DNA from: Chitinophagales bacterium
GTDB lineage: Bacteria; Bacteroidota; Bacteroidia; Chitinophagales; JADIYW01
DNA length: 64,000 nucleotides
Reading direction: 5' to 3'
Assembly: GCA_017984135.1 (NCBI GenBank)
Contig: JAGNZZ010000002.1
Span: forward strand, 38,282 to 102,281
The notes under the pieces are model-generated. The model searched no databases. It was not told the DNA's origin and saw only the letters and a program-made list of their open reading frames with translations. Both the position numbers and the translations under genes were made by a program. Positions 3,905 to 47,904 of this stretch are shown here, one piece after another (the first letter of the stretch is position 1; every line of letters begins with the position of its first letter).

Positions 3905-4432
3905 ATGCAATTTAATTTTTTAGTTACGATGCTTTTAGCCGCATTAATTCCTTTAGTAATAGGCTCACTTTGGTACAATCCAAAAACTTTTGGTAATGCT
4001 TGGATGCATGCTTGCGGTTTTGATGAGAAAAAACTACAAGAAAACTTTAATGCACCTTTGGTGTTTGGATTGTCTTATTTTATGAGCATTTTCATCGCTT
4101 TCGGACTAAGCTCAATTGTCATTCATCAATTCGGTTTTTTTGGAATGTTGCAACGTGTGATAGCAGAAAACAATGTTGATGCATTGGCTTTTCTAAAAAC
4201 TGGTTTTGATCATTATGGCAATGAATTTAGAACCTTTAAGCATGGTGCATTTCATGGTACCATAACTGGTATCGCCATCGCATTGCCCATGGTTACTATC
4301 AATGCTTTATTTGAACGGCGTGGCTTTAAATATATCGCTATTAATGCTGGATATTGGATTTTAAGTTTATGTATAATGGGCGGATTTATTTGCCAATTTG
4401 CCAAAATAGGAGCAGATTTTTTTTCAAAATAA
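3905..4432 (+). CDS. DUF1761 integral membrane protein
   Basis: The 175-residue protein has four likely membrane spans (about 6-24, 50-70, 118-138, 148-170). The motif GSLWYNPKTFGNAWMHACGF near residue 20, and WYxPxxFGxxW in general, is the hallmark of DUF1761, a family of small bacterial inner-membrane proteins of unknown function. The start MQFNFLVTML places the first span immediately. It stands alone between sucC and the convergent pssA, sharing a bidirectional terminator with the latter. No function is known. Confidence 0.85.
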   Translation: MQFNFLVTMLLAALIPLVIGSLWYNPKTFGNAWMHACGFDEKKLQENFNAPLVFGLSYFMSIFIAFGLSSIVIHQFGFFGMLQRVIAENNVDALAFLKTGFDHYGNEFRTFKHGAFHGTITGIAIALPMVTINALFERRGFKYIAINAGYWILSLCIMGGFICQFAKIGADFFSK

Positions 4433-4481: not shown

Positions 4482-5228
4482 TTATTGAACTGTTTGCTGT
4501 TTAAATAGATTGTGTAATAAAGCGAAAATTACGTAACTGATAATAATTGTACTTAACCCAATCCATTTTAAAAAAAATAATTGAGGAATAGTACTCCATA
4601 AAAAGAGTACACGCATTTTATTTTCTTTCCAACTAAATGGATTTCCTTTCATGCTGAAAATTTCTATCTCTGCAACTGCAAAAAATGCCAGTATAAACGG
4701 AATAATCATGGCCGCTATATTTGAATAAATGATAAAATCCCAATTGCTTTGGAATCGCCATTCCGTAAAATATTGCATGTAAAAACCTAATACAAAAAGG
4801 CTACAAGCTGGCGTGTTTAATCCAATGAAATTAACTGTTTGTCGTGTGTCTAAATTAAATTTTGCTAAACGCAAACAAGCAAATAAGGTATAAACAAACC
4901 CTAATAATGCAGCTGGTTTTTGTAAAACAGCTCGATTGATTTGGATTTCATTGCTCATTAAATTTATATCTGTACTTAAAACAGAATATAGCATCATACC
5001 TGGCAAAACACCAAATGTTACCATGTCGGCTAAGGAATCTAATTGACCTCCTAAATCGGATTTTACATTCAATGCACGTGCAATAAAGCCATCTAAAAAA
5101 TCAGCCAATAAAGAAATTCCAATAAAAATGGGAACTAAAGCGTATTGATGGTTGAAACATGCAAGAATACCACAACAACCAAAAAATAAATTTAAAAGTG
5201 TTATTGAGTTTGGAATATGTTTTACCAT
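4482..5228 (-). CDS. pssA: CDP-diacylglycerol-serine O-phosphatidyltransferase
   Basis: The 248-residue membrane enzyme carries the CDP-alcohol phosphotransferase signature DG-x2-AR-x8-G-x3-D-x3-D, seen as DGFIAR then GGQLDSLAD near residues 45-70, with the Asp residues that bind metal and CDP. It makes phosphatidylserine from CDP-DAG and serine at the inner membrane; the MVKHIPNSITLLNLFFGC start is typical. Six or seven hydrophobic spans are visible. The gene follows the S1P-lyase-like gene by 24 nt on the same strand, so they are probably cotranscribed. This is notable because that enzyme would release phosphoethanolamine, a phospholipid head group. Confidence 0.95.
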   Translation of the reverse strand: MVKHIPNSITLLNLFFGCCGILACFNHQYALVPIFIGISLLADFLDGFIARALNVKSDLGGQLDSLADMVTFGVLPGMMLYSVLSTDINLMSNEIQINRAVLQKPAALLGFVYTLFACLRLAKFNLDTRQTVNFIGLNTPACSLFVLGFYMQYFTEWRFQSNWDFIIYSNIAAMIIPFILAFFAVAEIEIFSMKGNPFSWKENKMRVLFLWSTIPQLFFLKWIGLSTIIISYVIFALLHNLFKQQTVQ

Positions 5229-24886: not shown

Positions 24887-27800
24887 CTAATTTAGCACAA
24901 CTAATTTTTGATATTGGCTTACTTTTTTCCCAAATTCATCTTTTATGGTTACTCTATATATATATACGCCACGTCCAATTTTATCTCCATAATCATCTAA
25001 TCCATCCCACGCAATATCATTTACTCTATATCCAATAGTATTAATATTTTTAGATATGGTTTTAATTACCTTGCCAGAAACTGAAAAAATTTCAATTTTT
25101 AAATCTAAGTTAACACCTGGTCGGTTATGTTCAAACATAAAATGTGTACTTGTGGTAAAAGGATTGGGATAATTTAAAACATGAGAAAGTGCTAGTTTTG
25201 CAGTTTCTTCTACTAAAAATTCAGTATAACCTACACCTGAATTATTTAAAACATCCCAAGCTTTCACTTCTAAAGTGTGTTTGCCTTTGCTTAATTTTGA
25301 GAATGGATAAGTAAGGCTTCCTTTTGAAATATTATCGACATCTGTTTCATAGAAATCATTTAAAGTATAAATATTTTTTGTGTCATTATCAATAATGGCA
25401 GTAATATCATGCCCAATTCCATTTCCGGAGGTATTAATCCCGTTTTCGTCGAACAAATTGCAAAGTAATTTTGGATTTTCATCCGTAATTCCTCCAAATA
25501 CGAATTTTGCATCATTCATAAAAACATCCACGATAGGTCCTTTATTGTCAATAGGAAATGTATCACTAACACCACCAATTACAATGTCAGCAGTATTGCC
25601 GGATGCATCTGTAGTATCTGCATAAGCATATAAACTGATTTTTCCATTTCCATAATTATAATCTATATCTTTTGGAACTAAAAAGGTACATGAAAATACT
25701 CCATTTGTTGTTTTTGTTTTTCCTTTGTAGATACTATTTTTTTGTATATTAAAAGGGAAAAGATAACTATCAGGATCATTTTTTAATGTTGAAATAGATT
25801 TCATTTTATCATATACATTAATCGCTGTAATGCCATTAAAATCAGTCATTTTTTGGTTGTATAAATCTCGGACTTCGCCTTCAATAGTAATCTTTGACAA
25901 TGCTTTCAGCGTGTCATGTGGCGATACTATAGGTGATGAATTTATTTTTGTCACTACAACATTATAACTAGGTAAAGCTAAACGCAAAGCCGGATCGCCA
26001 AGGAGTGAAAATTTTCGATTTCCATCATTGGTGTTTGTGTTGTTTTTTGCTATTCTTAGCATATCACCTAAAGTCATTGTTGCATCTGAGTAGGCAATCG
26101 GAAATTGATTCATGAAATTTTGATTCATTGTTTTATTTCGATGCGAATAAACAATTCTTGTCGTGGTAAGTAACGCAATGCCACCTCCATTTTCTTTAAA
26201 CAAAACACGTTCGCCAGCAGTGTATTGGTCTGGAATATCGTAAGGTGCAAACTCACATGATGCCGTAATAAATAATGGAAGTTTATTTTCATTTTTCCAT
26301 TGGTTAATATCATCAATAGAAAGAATTCGTTCTTTAGCTAAACCGATTGGACCACCATGTCCTACATAGTTAATAAATAAAGTTCCTGTAAATAATTTTT
26401 TGTGTATGGCATCTACTACAGCAGGATAGGTTGCACCACCAGTGGAAGATTGTTGCTGAAAAGCATCTAAATATATTTTATCAATGTTTAATTTGTTTTG
26501 TGCTAAGGCAATATTTTGAGCAATCTCATCTGCATCTTCAACATGAATATTGAAATCTTCATCATCGGCAATAAATGTTCCTTGATTGCGCCAATCTCCG
26601 TAAGCGACTGAGGATAGATACATTTTTATTTTATCTATGGCTGTTTGTGCTTGGGTTATATTGTCAGCAGGAATTCGACCTACACTTGCGTCTAATTTTT
26701 CTGTTCCTGTGTTGGTAATATTGGCACCTTCATTATCATCTAATAATCCAAAATAATCGTCAGAAACATAGGTCTCTAAAGATTCGTATGTTTTATCACT
26801 TTCATACGTTGGCATTAAAAATTCACCTAAATTTTTATTGTCATACGAGCCATCTCCAATTATTAAAACATATTTAGGTATTTGTGAAATATTGCCGTTT
26901 GCTCTATCGTAAAACATTTTTATACAATTTCGAATAGCAGTAATGTCGTTTGAGCCAGAAGAAAACTCATTGAATACCTGATTTAATTCCAAAACTGCAA
27001 CACGTAAATTTTGTTTGGTTTGATGTAAAAGTGCCAATTCGTTTGCTTGAGATAAAAATGCGGTTCGGGTAAAAATCAACATATCTTTTTGAGGCAATCC
27101 ATGTATATTCTGATTTGAAACAGAACCCATCGCTATGGGTGAATTGGCAGATGATTCATAAGCCACGAATTCTTTTAATGAATCAGTACTGATTTTAAAA
27201 GATGCAATAGCTCCATTTAAAGTATAATTTATTTTTTCGATATTGAAAGGATTGGTTACATCCCAAATGTCAACTTGGTTATTCATATTTTGAATTTCAA
27301 AATTAGAGATATTACCACTGCCAACAGAAGCGATGCTTCTAAAATACAAAGGTTCTCCATTGTATTTTAAATTTGAAACTGCATTTATTTGAATATAATC
27401 TATCCACCCTTTTGTGCTAAAATCTCCATTTCTATTATAGTTTAGGTCGATAGTAAAGCTAGGATTTAAACTAAAAAAATTAAATATCTTTTCATCTCTA
27501 ACTGCGGTATTGTCTATGCCTGAAACTTGTCCAACATTGTTTAAAAAAATTGTATTTGAATTGTTTCCTCCATCTGACGTAATAGTAAATGAAGAACCGG
27601 ATGCTTTTGAAAATGCAGCTACCGCAATTGTAATTTTTGTTGGTTGAGCTGAAATTAGATTTGGAAAATTAAATGCAAATGATTTATTGTTAATGCCTCC
27701 AAATTCATCGCCCAAAAATTGTTTTCCGGATTTTGCGATATTGACTTTATCTTCTTCAAAAAATCCATAATCATTATAGGTGTTAATGTTTTTAGTAGCG

Positions 27801-45156: not shown

Positions 45157-45645
45157 TTATTCTTTGTAAGTAAAAGTACCGTTTATGGTAACTTCGGTTA
45201 AATCGGTTTCATTTTTTAAAGTGCCGTTTACTTTTCCTTCCACTAAAGTGCCATCTACTTTTGTAATTTCCAGCGTTAAATTGTTTTCGCCTGGACTTGC
45301 AGCCCATCCGGTTGAACCTTTTGTGTATGAAAATGTGGGCAATGCATCGGAGGTGGACATAGAAGATAAATTGAATATGGTACCAACGGTTACAGGCGTA
45401 GGAATTAACATCATACACAATTCAGTAGTAAATGTTTTTAAATTTACACTGGAACCGCTAACGTTTAAGTAGGAGCCATTCGATAAAACACTACTTAGTT
45501 TGTCGTCTGAATCAAAATTTCCCGAGGTGGCACCACTTACAGAAAAGCTAAATCTACTTTGACCGGCTTTAAGTGGCGTGGTGTTTTTTTTGGTACATGC
45601 AGTAAATAAAACGATGCATGTAAATAAATAAATTAAATTTTTCAT
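45157..45645 (-). CDS. lipoprotein, DUF6252-like
   Basis: The 162-residue lipoprotein has a lipobox LFTAC-TKK (Cys17). The mature part is a beta-sandwich with a pattern seen in DUF6252-type Bacteroidota lipoproteins: FSFSVSGATSGNF, a middle TVGTIFNLSS, and an end with NLTLEITKVDGTLVEGKVNGTLKN and VTINGTFTYKE. The final G-T-F-x-F/Y motif after two nested GTL/GTF strands is typical. Function unknown; probably surface or periplasm facing. It has its own promoter and stands before a 600-bp gap. Confidence 0.7.
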   Translation of the reverse strand: MKNLIYLFTCIVLFTACTKKNTTPLKAGQSRFSFSVSGATSGNFDSDDKLSSVLSNGSYLNVSGSSVNLKTFTTELCMMLIPTPVTVGTIFNLSSMSTSDALPTFSYTKGSTGWAASPGENNLTLEITKVDGTLVEGKVNGTLKNETDLTEVTINGTFTYKE

Positions 45646-45672
45646 GATTACTATTTTTTTGATTTATACTTT

Positions 45673-45680
45673 CAAAAGTA
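45673..45680 (-). promoter_or_regulatory. -7 promoter element of the 45157 lipoprotein gene
   Basis: Minus-strand TACTTTTG, exact TAnnTTTG, ends 27 nt before the ATG at 45645. Confidence 0.6.
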
Positions 45681-46095
45681 AACTATTTAATTTATTTTAA
45701 AAATACGTGATTAATGGTATTATTTGTATTTATATGCTTTTTAAAAGAGTAAATGGAAATTTTTTTTGGAAATACATTTAATCATAAGGTAAATAGGTAC
45801 AAATAAGGTAATGATTTATTTTAGTATTGCTACTCCTTTATTGCAATTTTAAATAGTAGGATATTATACTTGAATGTTATTCATCTTCGCCATTTTTTTT
45901 TATTTGTTTTCGTATGATTGTTCTATTTTAAACTGCTAATAAATATTGAAGGTTTTAAAGGTTATGGATTTTAATTTTTTTATTTTAGTCCCATTTTTTT
46001 AAAGATTATCGCTTTGATTTTGTCTGAATCAAATTGTCTATTAATTATTAAATTAAACGAGCTATTATATATTGATTCCTTTTAATAAATGTTGT
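45681..46095. other. gene-free AT-rich gap
   Basis: Part of the 603-base gap between the 45157 lipoprotein and the PafA-type gene. It is very AT-rich, has stops in all frames and no recognisable gene, tRNA or exact plus-strand -7 octamer. It contains T-tracts but no strong hairpin. The following 145 bases differ sharply in composition and are listed separately. Confidence 0.5.
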
Positions 46096-46240
46096 ACGCA
46101 TGCGTGAAGGATGGAAGCGGAAATACTTTTTTATGTAGCTTTTCGCGTGGGTAAAAAAGATTGGAGCAAACAGCCTGACGGCATGTTTGGATTTTGTGTG
46201 TAAGCATGCCGGCACGCACAAATCACTAAAAGTTTTTTTA
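46096..46240 (+). ncRNA. candidate structured RNA or relic element
   Basis: A GC-richer block in an AT-rich gap. Possible helices: TGCGTG (46101-46106) with CACGCA (46213-46218); GCGGAAATAC (46117-46126) with 46135-46146, with one G-U pair and a two-base bulge; CTTTTTTA (46126-46133) with TAAAAAAG (46152-46159), exclusive with the preceding; CGGCATG (46179-46185) with CATGCCG (46205-46211); and a terminal 11-bp stem 46190-46201/46214-46224 with one bulge and one G-U, followed by seven T's at 46233-46239. The wobble pairs favour plus-strand RNA. A palindrome ACGCATGCGT opens the block. No plus-strand gene precedes it. I cannot assign it to a known RNA family. Confidence 0.35.
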
Positions 46241-46248
46241 TTTAGATT

Positions 46249-47904
46249 TTATTTTTTAATGACTTCATTAATCGTGTTGCCGATACAACCATTTGGCATT
46301 TGGATGTTTAGAATATTTGAAATAGTAGGAGCGATATCGGTCATGTAAGTTTTACTATTGAGTTTTCCTTTGTTTACGCCATAGCCGTAAAATAGCAATG
46401 GAATATGTGCATCATAAGGATTCCAAACACTATGGTTGGTACCCGTATTGTATTTTGAATCAACATAACCAGCCTTTAATATGGTTAGTATGTCGCCGCA
46501 CCGTTGTGGATGATAGCCTTTGATGAATTGTTCTTTAATTTCGTTAGGAAGCATAGCATTTTGTAGGTTGGTGAAATCTAAAACTCGATCAATTCCTTCA
46601 GTAGATTTTAAGAAAGCGATTGCTTCGTTTGTAATTTCAATTTTATTTAATTTTTTTTGTTCAATAAGTTCAAAGTTTAAATAAAATTGACCTTTAAAAT
46701 TTGCGATACAAATAGTGTCGTATCCAAATTTTTCTTTTAAAATTTGGTTGAGTTTTTTTCTTAATGCAGTGCCAGCAACGATTCCACTTGGTATTTTATG
46801 TTTTTTTAAATATTCAGGTATATGTGCGATGCCATGATCGGAACTTAAAAACAAAGTGTAATTATTTTTTCCAATTTCAATATCTAAAAATTTAAGGAAG
46901 TTTGCTAAGTCTTTATCTAATCGCAAATAGGTATCTTCATTTTCAATAGAATTTGGACCAAATGCATGTCCAATATAATCGGTTGATGAAATTGAAATAG
47001 CTAATAAATCAGGAATGGAATCCATTCCAATTTTTTCATTTTTTATAGCAGCCTTTGCAAAGTCAAATGTCATCGATATGCCATACGGCGTGCTGAAAAT
47101 TTTATCAAAATTTTTAGTATCTGCAAATCGTTTTAAATCATAAGGAAATTTTTTTTGAGTACTGTCAAATTCTGTGTGTTCATATTTATTTTCATCCTCA
47201 TCACTTTGTAAATAGGTATTGATAGGATATAAAGTGTTCCAATTATTTTGATAGTAATTTAATACTACTTGAGGTGTATTAAAACTTTTTACCCAATTGG
47301 GCAAATCGTTTCTATAATACGAAGAAGTAATGAAATTTCCAGTTTTGGTGTCGTACCAATATGCGGCATCTGCGCTGTGTCCAGCAGGTAAAATGGAGCC
47401 TCTATCTTTGAGTGAAATGCCAAATACTTTTGCTCTAAAATTCGTAGCTAATTTAAGTTCATCGCCAATTGTTGTAACCCATAAATTTTTTGGACTCATT
47501 TGTCCTTTGTCGTTGTTGTCAGTTCCTATTGGTTGCACGGTTTTATCTTCTGTACAATATTTATTTTTTTGAGATGGATAATCATACCAATCATTGCCTA
47601 CAATTCCATTGATAGCTGGCACGCTTCCCGTGTAAATACAGGCATGTCCGGCGGCTGTTACCGTTGGACAATATGGAATAAATGTATTTTCACAATTAAA
47701 ACCTTGGTTTAATAATCGTTTAAATCCATCGTTTGAATACCTATCGTAATATCGATATAAAAAATCCCAACGCATTTGGTCTATTACAATTCCAACAACT
47801 AATTTTGGACGATTTAAAGTTTGTTTATTTAGGATTGTTTTAGGTTGAGCTATTGCATTTAAAAATGAACTTAAAAGTATAAAAATGCCAACTATTTTTT
47901 TCAT
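46249..47904 (-). CDS. pafA: PafA-type alkaline phosphatase
   Basis: The 551-residue exported enzyme (signal peptide MKKIVGIFILLSSFLNAIA-Q) belongs to the alkaline phosphatase superfamily. It has the metal/nucleophile segment IVIDQMRWDF and CPTVTAAGHACIYTG, with Thr83 as nucleophile. The residues that define phosphomonoesterases of the PafA type occur at matching spacing: Asn104 (VGNDW), Lys166 and Arg168 (LKDRG). The other metal ligands are in SSTDYIGHAFGP, SSDHGIAH and GTNHSVWNPYD. PafA releases phosphate from many phosphomonoesters in the periplasm. No Pho-type operator was seen. Confidence 0.9.
   Translation of the reverse strand: MKKIVGIFILLSSFLNAIAQPKTILNKQTLNRPKLVVGIVIDQMRWDFLYRYYDRYSNDGFKRLLNQGFNCENTFIPYCPTVTAAGHACIYTGSVPAINGIVGNDWYDYPSQKNKYCTEDKTVQPIGTDNNDKGQMSPKNLWVTTIGDELKLATNFRAKVFGISLKDRGSILPAGHSADAAYWYDTKTGNFITSSYYRNDLPNWVKSFNTPQVVLNYYQNNWNTLYPINTYLQSDEDENKYEHTEFDSTQKKFPYDLKRFADTKNFDKIFSTPYGISMTFDFAKAAIKNEKIGMDSIPDLLAISISSTDYIGHAFGPNSIENEDTYLRLDKDLANFLKFLDIEIGKNNYTLFLSSDHGIAHIPEYLKKHKIPSGIVAGTALRKKLNQILKEKFGYDTICIANFKGQFYLNFELIEQKKLNKIEITNEAIAFLKSTEGIDRVLDFTNLQNAMLPNEIKEQFIKGYHPQRCGDILTILKAGYVDSKYNTGTNHSVWNPYDAHIPLLFYGYGVNKGKLNSKTYMTDIAPTISNILNIQMPNGCIGNTINEVIKK

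Follow-up and report, generated by a model that had tools for sequence, protein, structure and literature searches.

The folded block at positions 46096 to 46240 of the window, the 64,000-nucleotide stretch of Chitinophagales DNA analyzed here, is one copy of the known Bacteroidota family Flavo-1. We consider it most likely (probability of roughly 0.7) that this block is a dispersed, noncoding, structured Flavo-1 repeat that spreads nonautonomously and is recognized by its fold, present in the window as a lineage-specific insertion rather than as a small RNA (sRNA) gene. The copies that we compared are dispersed, their sites turn over between species, and their structure is under constraint. 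The three-way-junction form with helices P1 and P3, the evidence from presence or absence at sites and from cassettes, and the negative result for RAYT genes are new here; no prior description of the P1/P3 architecture, the turnover, or the RAYT result was found in the part of the literature that we covered. Flavo-1 has stood as an orphan RNA motif from 2010 onward, and its matches on both strands were left unexplained by transcriptome studies. A dispersed element that is gained and lost and carries a larger, tightly kept fold would explain these matches; such a view warns against tallying Flavo-1 copies as sRNA genes and frames a testable question, namely, what moves Flavo-1 and what keeps its fold in place.

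Family and architecture of the folded block

The block lies in a spacer (45646-46248) that is bounded on both sides by minus-strand genes and has a G+C content of 16 to 24%, compared with 42 to 44% in the block itself. This agrees with the initial annotation, which had described a gap that is AT rich apart from the block, with the nearest genes on either side on the minus strand. A search of the window against all Rfam families, of the kind that the annotation had proposed, gave a single match, Flavo-1 (RF01705), whose score of 43.5 bits exceeds the gathering cutoff of 42 bits. The sequence core, the P2 secondary structure with its covariation, and the Bacteroidota host likewise agree with this family, which Weinberg et al. 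2010 listed among probable RNAs, with a cis-regulatory role judged improbable (PMC2864571), and which Rfam places in the class “Gene; sRNA.” Rfam models P2 only, whereas the unit found here extends to a closing helix with covariation, P1, and to a further hairpin, P3. The features of the locus are as follows.

45157 to 45645, minus strand: flanking gene for a small lipoprotein-like protein (open reading frame [ORF], without a Pfam match)
46092 to 46184, plus strand: Rfam match to RF01705, Flavo-1 (43.5 bits, E = 5.1e-6), whose family structure covers P2 only
46102 to 46217, plus strand: full element, a three-way-junction Flavo-1 unit of 116 bp (model R1, 91.4 bits; minimum-energy fold identical to the covariation structure)
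46102 to 46106, plus strand: 5′ strand of the closing helix P1 (GCGTG; 5 of 5 pairs changed on both sides in 26 copies)
46108 to 46176, plus strand: P2, the Flavo-1 hairpin (Rfam structure, covariation, and minimum-energy fold)
46179 to 46211, plus strand: P3, the second hairpin, 11 bp (minimum-energy fold and covariation)
46213 to 46217, plus strand: 3′ strand of P1 (CACGC; 5 of 5 pairs changed on both sides in 26 copies)
46233 to 46239, plus strand: run of seven T's outside the element, 21 nt past P3 and 15 nt past P1, not in a canonical terminator
46249 to 47904, minus strand: flanking gene for a type I phosphodiesterase/nucleotide pyrophosphatase family protein (Pfam PF01663; ORF)

The full-length model R1 was built from 26 copies, including that of the window. 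P2 consists of short helices split by conserved purine-rich 3-by-3 internal loops and carries a variable apical stem, and P3 is present in the window's family and shorter or missing elsewhere. Copies of this family start with GCGTK and end with MACGC. In the 26-copy alignment, pairing holds in 97.7% of 565 paired cells versus 81.7% in shuffles, both sides have changed in 17 of 23 pairs (8.6 in shuffles), and double changes are seen in 81 cells (19.7 when shuffled and at most 13 when slid by 1 to 3 columns). P1 shows 100% pairing, and each of its five pairs covaries; the 100% figure arises partly by selection, the copies having been trimmed at matching P1 ends, and the variety of pair types (GCGTG/CACGC, GCGTT/AACGC, GCATT/AATGC, and GCGGC/GCCGC) is the better evidence for this helix. 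P3 is paired in 94.6% of its cells, and three of its four counted pairs have changed on both sides, with pairing at 73.7% in more distant copies. In an alignment, fitted to the model, of another 73 copies taken from genomes at greater distance, 94.9% of cells were paired and 309 cells showed double changes versus 98.7 expected, pairing being almost perfect in P2 and weaker in P1 and P3. These patterns of change clearly point to a fold maintained by natural selection. All helices that had been noticed in the block are confirmed, and the proposal of a conserved folded element gains very strong support from the Rfam match and from covariation in every helix.

For the window copy, energy minimization gives exactly the covariation structure, with P1, P2, and P3. 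The unit at 46102-46217 folds with −40.7 kcal/mol (z = −3.86), a value equaled by none of 200 shuffles, whereas the wider 161-nt block reaches a z score of only −1.81 (10 of 200 shuffles as low). The last stem had been described as an 11-bp helix, which is P3 as found here; it includes G-U pairs on the plus strand, and the plus strand does fold better. The seven T's that were said to follow this stem start only 21 nt beyond it, and a terminator scan found no Rho-independent terminator at the 3′ end of the element. The use of G-U pairs to argue for the plus strand does not hold across the family once composition is controlled: raw folding energy is lower on the plus strand in all 26 copies, but the strand z scores do not differ after dinucleotide control (17 of 26; P = 0.17), and we rejected this asymmetry as proof of a plus-strand RNA. 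Scarcity of G-U pairs was considered as a sign of a DNA-level element. It is suggestive in P2, with 8 G-T and 1 A-C among about 1,015 cells, but the G-U content of the copies' own folds, variable stems included, is 8.6%, close to the 9.4% of the signal recognition particle (SRP) RNA.

Copy number and turnover of sites

Among 61 relatives, the number of Flavo-1 copies per genome ranged from 0 to 61, with swings within a single genus from 0 to 13 (the window's genus) and from 1 to 33 (another genus). The SRP RNA (RF00169), a conserved hairpin RNA of about 100 nt as well, served as a control and, in contrast, was found in 53 of the 61 relatives with at most one copy per genome. Flavo-1 occurred in 148 of 396 genomes of the class, a survey in which copy counts are lower bounds (at most 11 candidates per genome were scored). 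One complete chromosome of the Flavobacterium group carries 28 copies above the cutoff, 14 per strand, distributed all around the replicon. The genome of the window, from the same class as Flavobacterium and a different order, has two copies only, which are 78% identical across the full unit and agree in their boundaries; the second one scores 41.8 with RF01705, slightly under the cutoff, and sits downstream of an apparent dnaK gene. The shared class follows from genome G117, labeled as a member of it, which yielded a protein identical to one of F. limi. The gene preceding the element, as called by a simple ORF caller, is on the same strand in 38 loci and on the opposite strand in 39, showing that the orientation relative to neighboring genes is random. 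No copies were found on phages, plasmids, or viral contigs. Near clustered Flavo-1 copies of genome G013 (L077:185-356, 801-988) lies another repeat family, whose units are ∼160 bp long and number about 40; the genus of G013 has no second species that could show an empty site.

Presence and absence at orthologous sites were followed in the window's genus, where a search with the full-length model R1 found 26 copies in 6 of 8 congeners. The site next to the phosphodiesterase gene, with the element 31 bp from its stop codon, is occupied in the window's genome (G000) only and lacks the element in the other seven congeners. Conversely, site 1 is filled in G003, G004, and G005 and empty in the other five, the window's genome included, and site 2 is filled in the same three congeners and empty in G000, G001, and G006. 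At both sites, the same neighbor genes occur without the element in the window's genome and in no fewer than two other congeners. The three site 2 orthologues differ by compensatory changes. The flanks of the compared sites are too diverged for the exact insertion junction or a target-site duplication to be read.

Around these sites, we made several further observations. The stretch at 45157-46248, between the thioesterase and phosphodiesterase genes, is variable within the genus: congener G005 has an unrelated gene there, to which the lipoprotein-like protein of the window bears no relation, and the spacer up to its phosphodiesterase gene is just a few bases long. On contig C13 of G005, near-identical inverted Flavo-1 copies are located at 4529-4648 (minus strand) and 26013-26130 (plus strand; L328, L332, L530, and L531). 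Genes that are adjacent in congeners are now ∼21 kb apart and inverted, with a Flavo-1 copy at each breakpoint, the pattern expected for an inversion via recombination between Flavo-1 copies. Beside the site 1 copy (L323:1315-1470), a stretch matches many short dispersed repeats in G003, G004, G005, and G000.

Turnover was also apparent between argE and argH in 80 named Flavobacterium species, where the spacer contains Flavo-1 in 36 species and lacks it in 44; another palindrome is present in 41 of the spacers without Flavo-1. Mapped on the single-gene tree of argE, presence and absence require at least 21 changes, at least 6 of them forced by strongly supported branches. The copies in this spacer carry five kinds of apical stem, for which 15 changes are needed; those kinds that are common also turn up at unrelated loci. 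Given that stem kinds both change at one site and recur at unrelated loci, copies or their tips have been exchanged. The argE-argH spacer is a hot spot (L240-L319, spacers downstream of argE, with the match end at 4068 in most loci), where Flavo-1, the CGCCACGAATTCACGAATT palindrome, and the CCCGACAGGTTTTAAAACCTGTCGGG palindrome swap almost species by species. In several Flavobacterium species, a second repeat, ACTTCACTTAATT...GTTCAGTGAACTTCG..., is inserted at the same position of the Flavo-1 3′ arm (L251, L252, L257, L269, L306, and L308).

Explanations for the spread and the fold

In the explanation that we favor, Flavo-1 would spread as a nonautonomous element, REP- or MITE-like, moved by an enzyme that acts in trans and recognizes the folded strand or a cruciform, and the window copy would be an insertion specific to its lineage, located in the spacer 3′ of the phosphodiesterase gene. 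The fold would be kept since the folded form is what is recognized. Because pairing is retained in orthologous copies as well, the element probably also has a role where it sits, for example, in shaping mRNA ends or the local structure of the DNA. Pairing at orthologous sites exceeds what is expected for a dead insertion, so that reading the copies purely as “selfish relics” does not suffice. The compensatory changes at site 2 suggest selection in place or conversion between copies, and gene conversion could be another source of the pairing retained in orthologues. The suggestion in the initial annotation that the block may be a relic of a dispersed element was thus correct as to dispersal, which is a better reading than an sRNA, but a mere relic does not fit the compensatory changes that keep the pairing. 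Counting against the favored explanation, no mobilizing enzyme was found for Flavo-1, either at 20 RAYT/Y1 genes or by correlation with copy number.

The main idea of the initial annotation, shared with the Rfam class, was an sRNA made from within the gap. As a rival explanation, this would be a trans-acting sRNA gene family with its own plus-strand promoter. Such a family would be in keeping with the conserved, strand-specific unpaired core, the strong covariation, and the view of Flavo-1 taken by Weinberg et al. However, consensus scans of the gap found 4 sigma-70 promoters versus 4.7 in shuffles, none above chance, and no match to a Bacteroidota-type promoter, and the terminator scan was empty. 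The position is unconserved, the orientation is random, and the copy number of 0 to 61, with the element missing from some congeners, is that of a dispersed repeat and not of the sRNA gene modeled by Rfam. Transcription maps of F. psychrophilum place Flavo-1 matches in both sense and antisense, many of them outside transcribed regions (PMC9723704). We therefore regard an sRNA gene family as unlikely, and the block itself is probably not an independent sRNA gene equipped with a promoter and a terminator. A cis-regulatory element would have a fixed position or strand relative to a gene class, which was not observed (38 versus 39). This also argues against a riboswitch-like regulator with exclusive helices, an explanation that we consider highly improbable: P1 of the window copy can compete with a pairing of the P3 loop, but a single structure is dominant (48% of the ensemble, with an identical centroid) and no downstream gene class is linked to the element. 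The pair TGCGTG/CACGCA, which had been proposed as one of two alternative helices, is P1 itself, and other copies do not conserve the P3-loop strand that would compete with it. The switch was rejected on the dominance of one structure.

A more serious alternative, possible although we would not adopt it as the leading account, is that the element plays a passive structural part in transcripts or DNA, is selected in place, and is spread by recombination rather than by transposition, acting, e.g., as a REP-like stabilizer of mRNA 3′ ends, a roadblock, or a protein-binding cruciform. This would account for the pairing kept by orthologous copies, for spacers in which other palindromes take the place of Flavo-1 as though any of them sufficed, for the apical stems swapped as cassettes, and for the rarity of wobble in P2, which is expected if both strands must fold. 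On the other hand, an essential local role would fit poorly with the random orientation and with most homologous spacers lacking the element, and the conserved loops are strand specific. Since the site 2 orthologues change compensatorily, a REP-like local role is the strongest companion hypothesis to nonautonomous spread. A wider generalization, which we offer tentatively, is that Flavo-1 may be a phylum-wide mobile structured element that both spreads and functions as a folded single strand of RNA or DNA, exchanges apical cassettes between copies, competes with unrelated palindromes for the same intergenic sites, and is moved by an enzyme other than a RAYT.

Relation to MITEs, REP sequences, and RAYT genes

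MITEs and other nonautonomous palindromic repeats, such as Correia and ERIC, have paired ends, a length of about 100 bp, and presence or absence between species. Flavo-1 shares all of these features, including presence or absence at orthologous sites, but it has no known parent transposon, its ends pair over 5 bp only, and its conserved part is the internal fold. In the pairs of closely spaced copies examined, no autonomous version with a transposase in between was found. Membership in the MITE class, which would call for a target-site duplication and a parent transposon, is not established.

Our comparison system for mobilization was that of REP and REPIN sequences with their RAYT transposases (PMC3733652, PMC6006769). 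Like these, Flavo-1 is a short, extragenic, multicopy palindrome that differs between species. Unlike these, it forms a larger unit with a three-way junction and conserved internal loops, it has no conserved GTAG/GGAG-type unpaired foot (the foot being the paired P1, GCGTK/MACGC), and it was not found beside RAYT genes (0 of 20 RAYT/Y1 loci examined were flanked by it). It thus lacks two defining features of REP/RAYT membership, the foot and a RAYT gene flanked by the repeat.

That Flavo-1 is the REP of a resident RAYT, a Bacteroidota subclass 2.6 HUH transposase, appears quite improbable to us. Genes of this subclass are flanked by “atypical” structures (PMC6006769), and a Y1 gene is mildly associated with Flavo-1, being present in 27 of 31 genomes with the element versus 17 of 30 without it. 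However, most of the 20 loci have other short palindromes of their own, and two genomes with 14 and 6 Flavo-1 copies contain no Y1 match (one of the two is 83% complete). Among carriers, copy number and Y1 gene number are uncorrelated (rho = 0.01). A RAYT/HUH mobilizer is therefore unsupported by both gene neighborhood and copy-number co-occurrence. As a separate observation, most RAYT-like genes of Bacteroidota have perfect palindromes on their flanks that are specific to the species, e.g., GGTTCGTGTCTTCACGAACC (L138-L157), which would be in the manner of the atypical structures of subclass 2.6.
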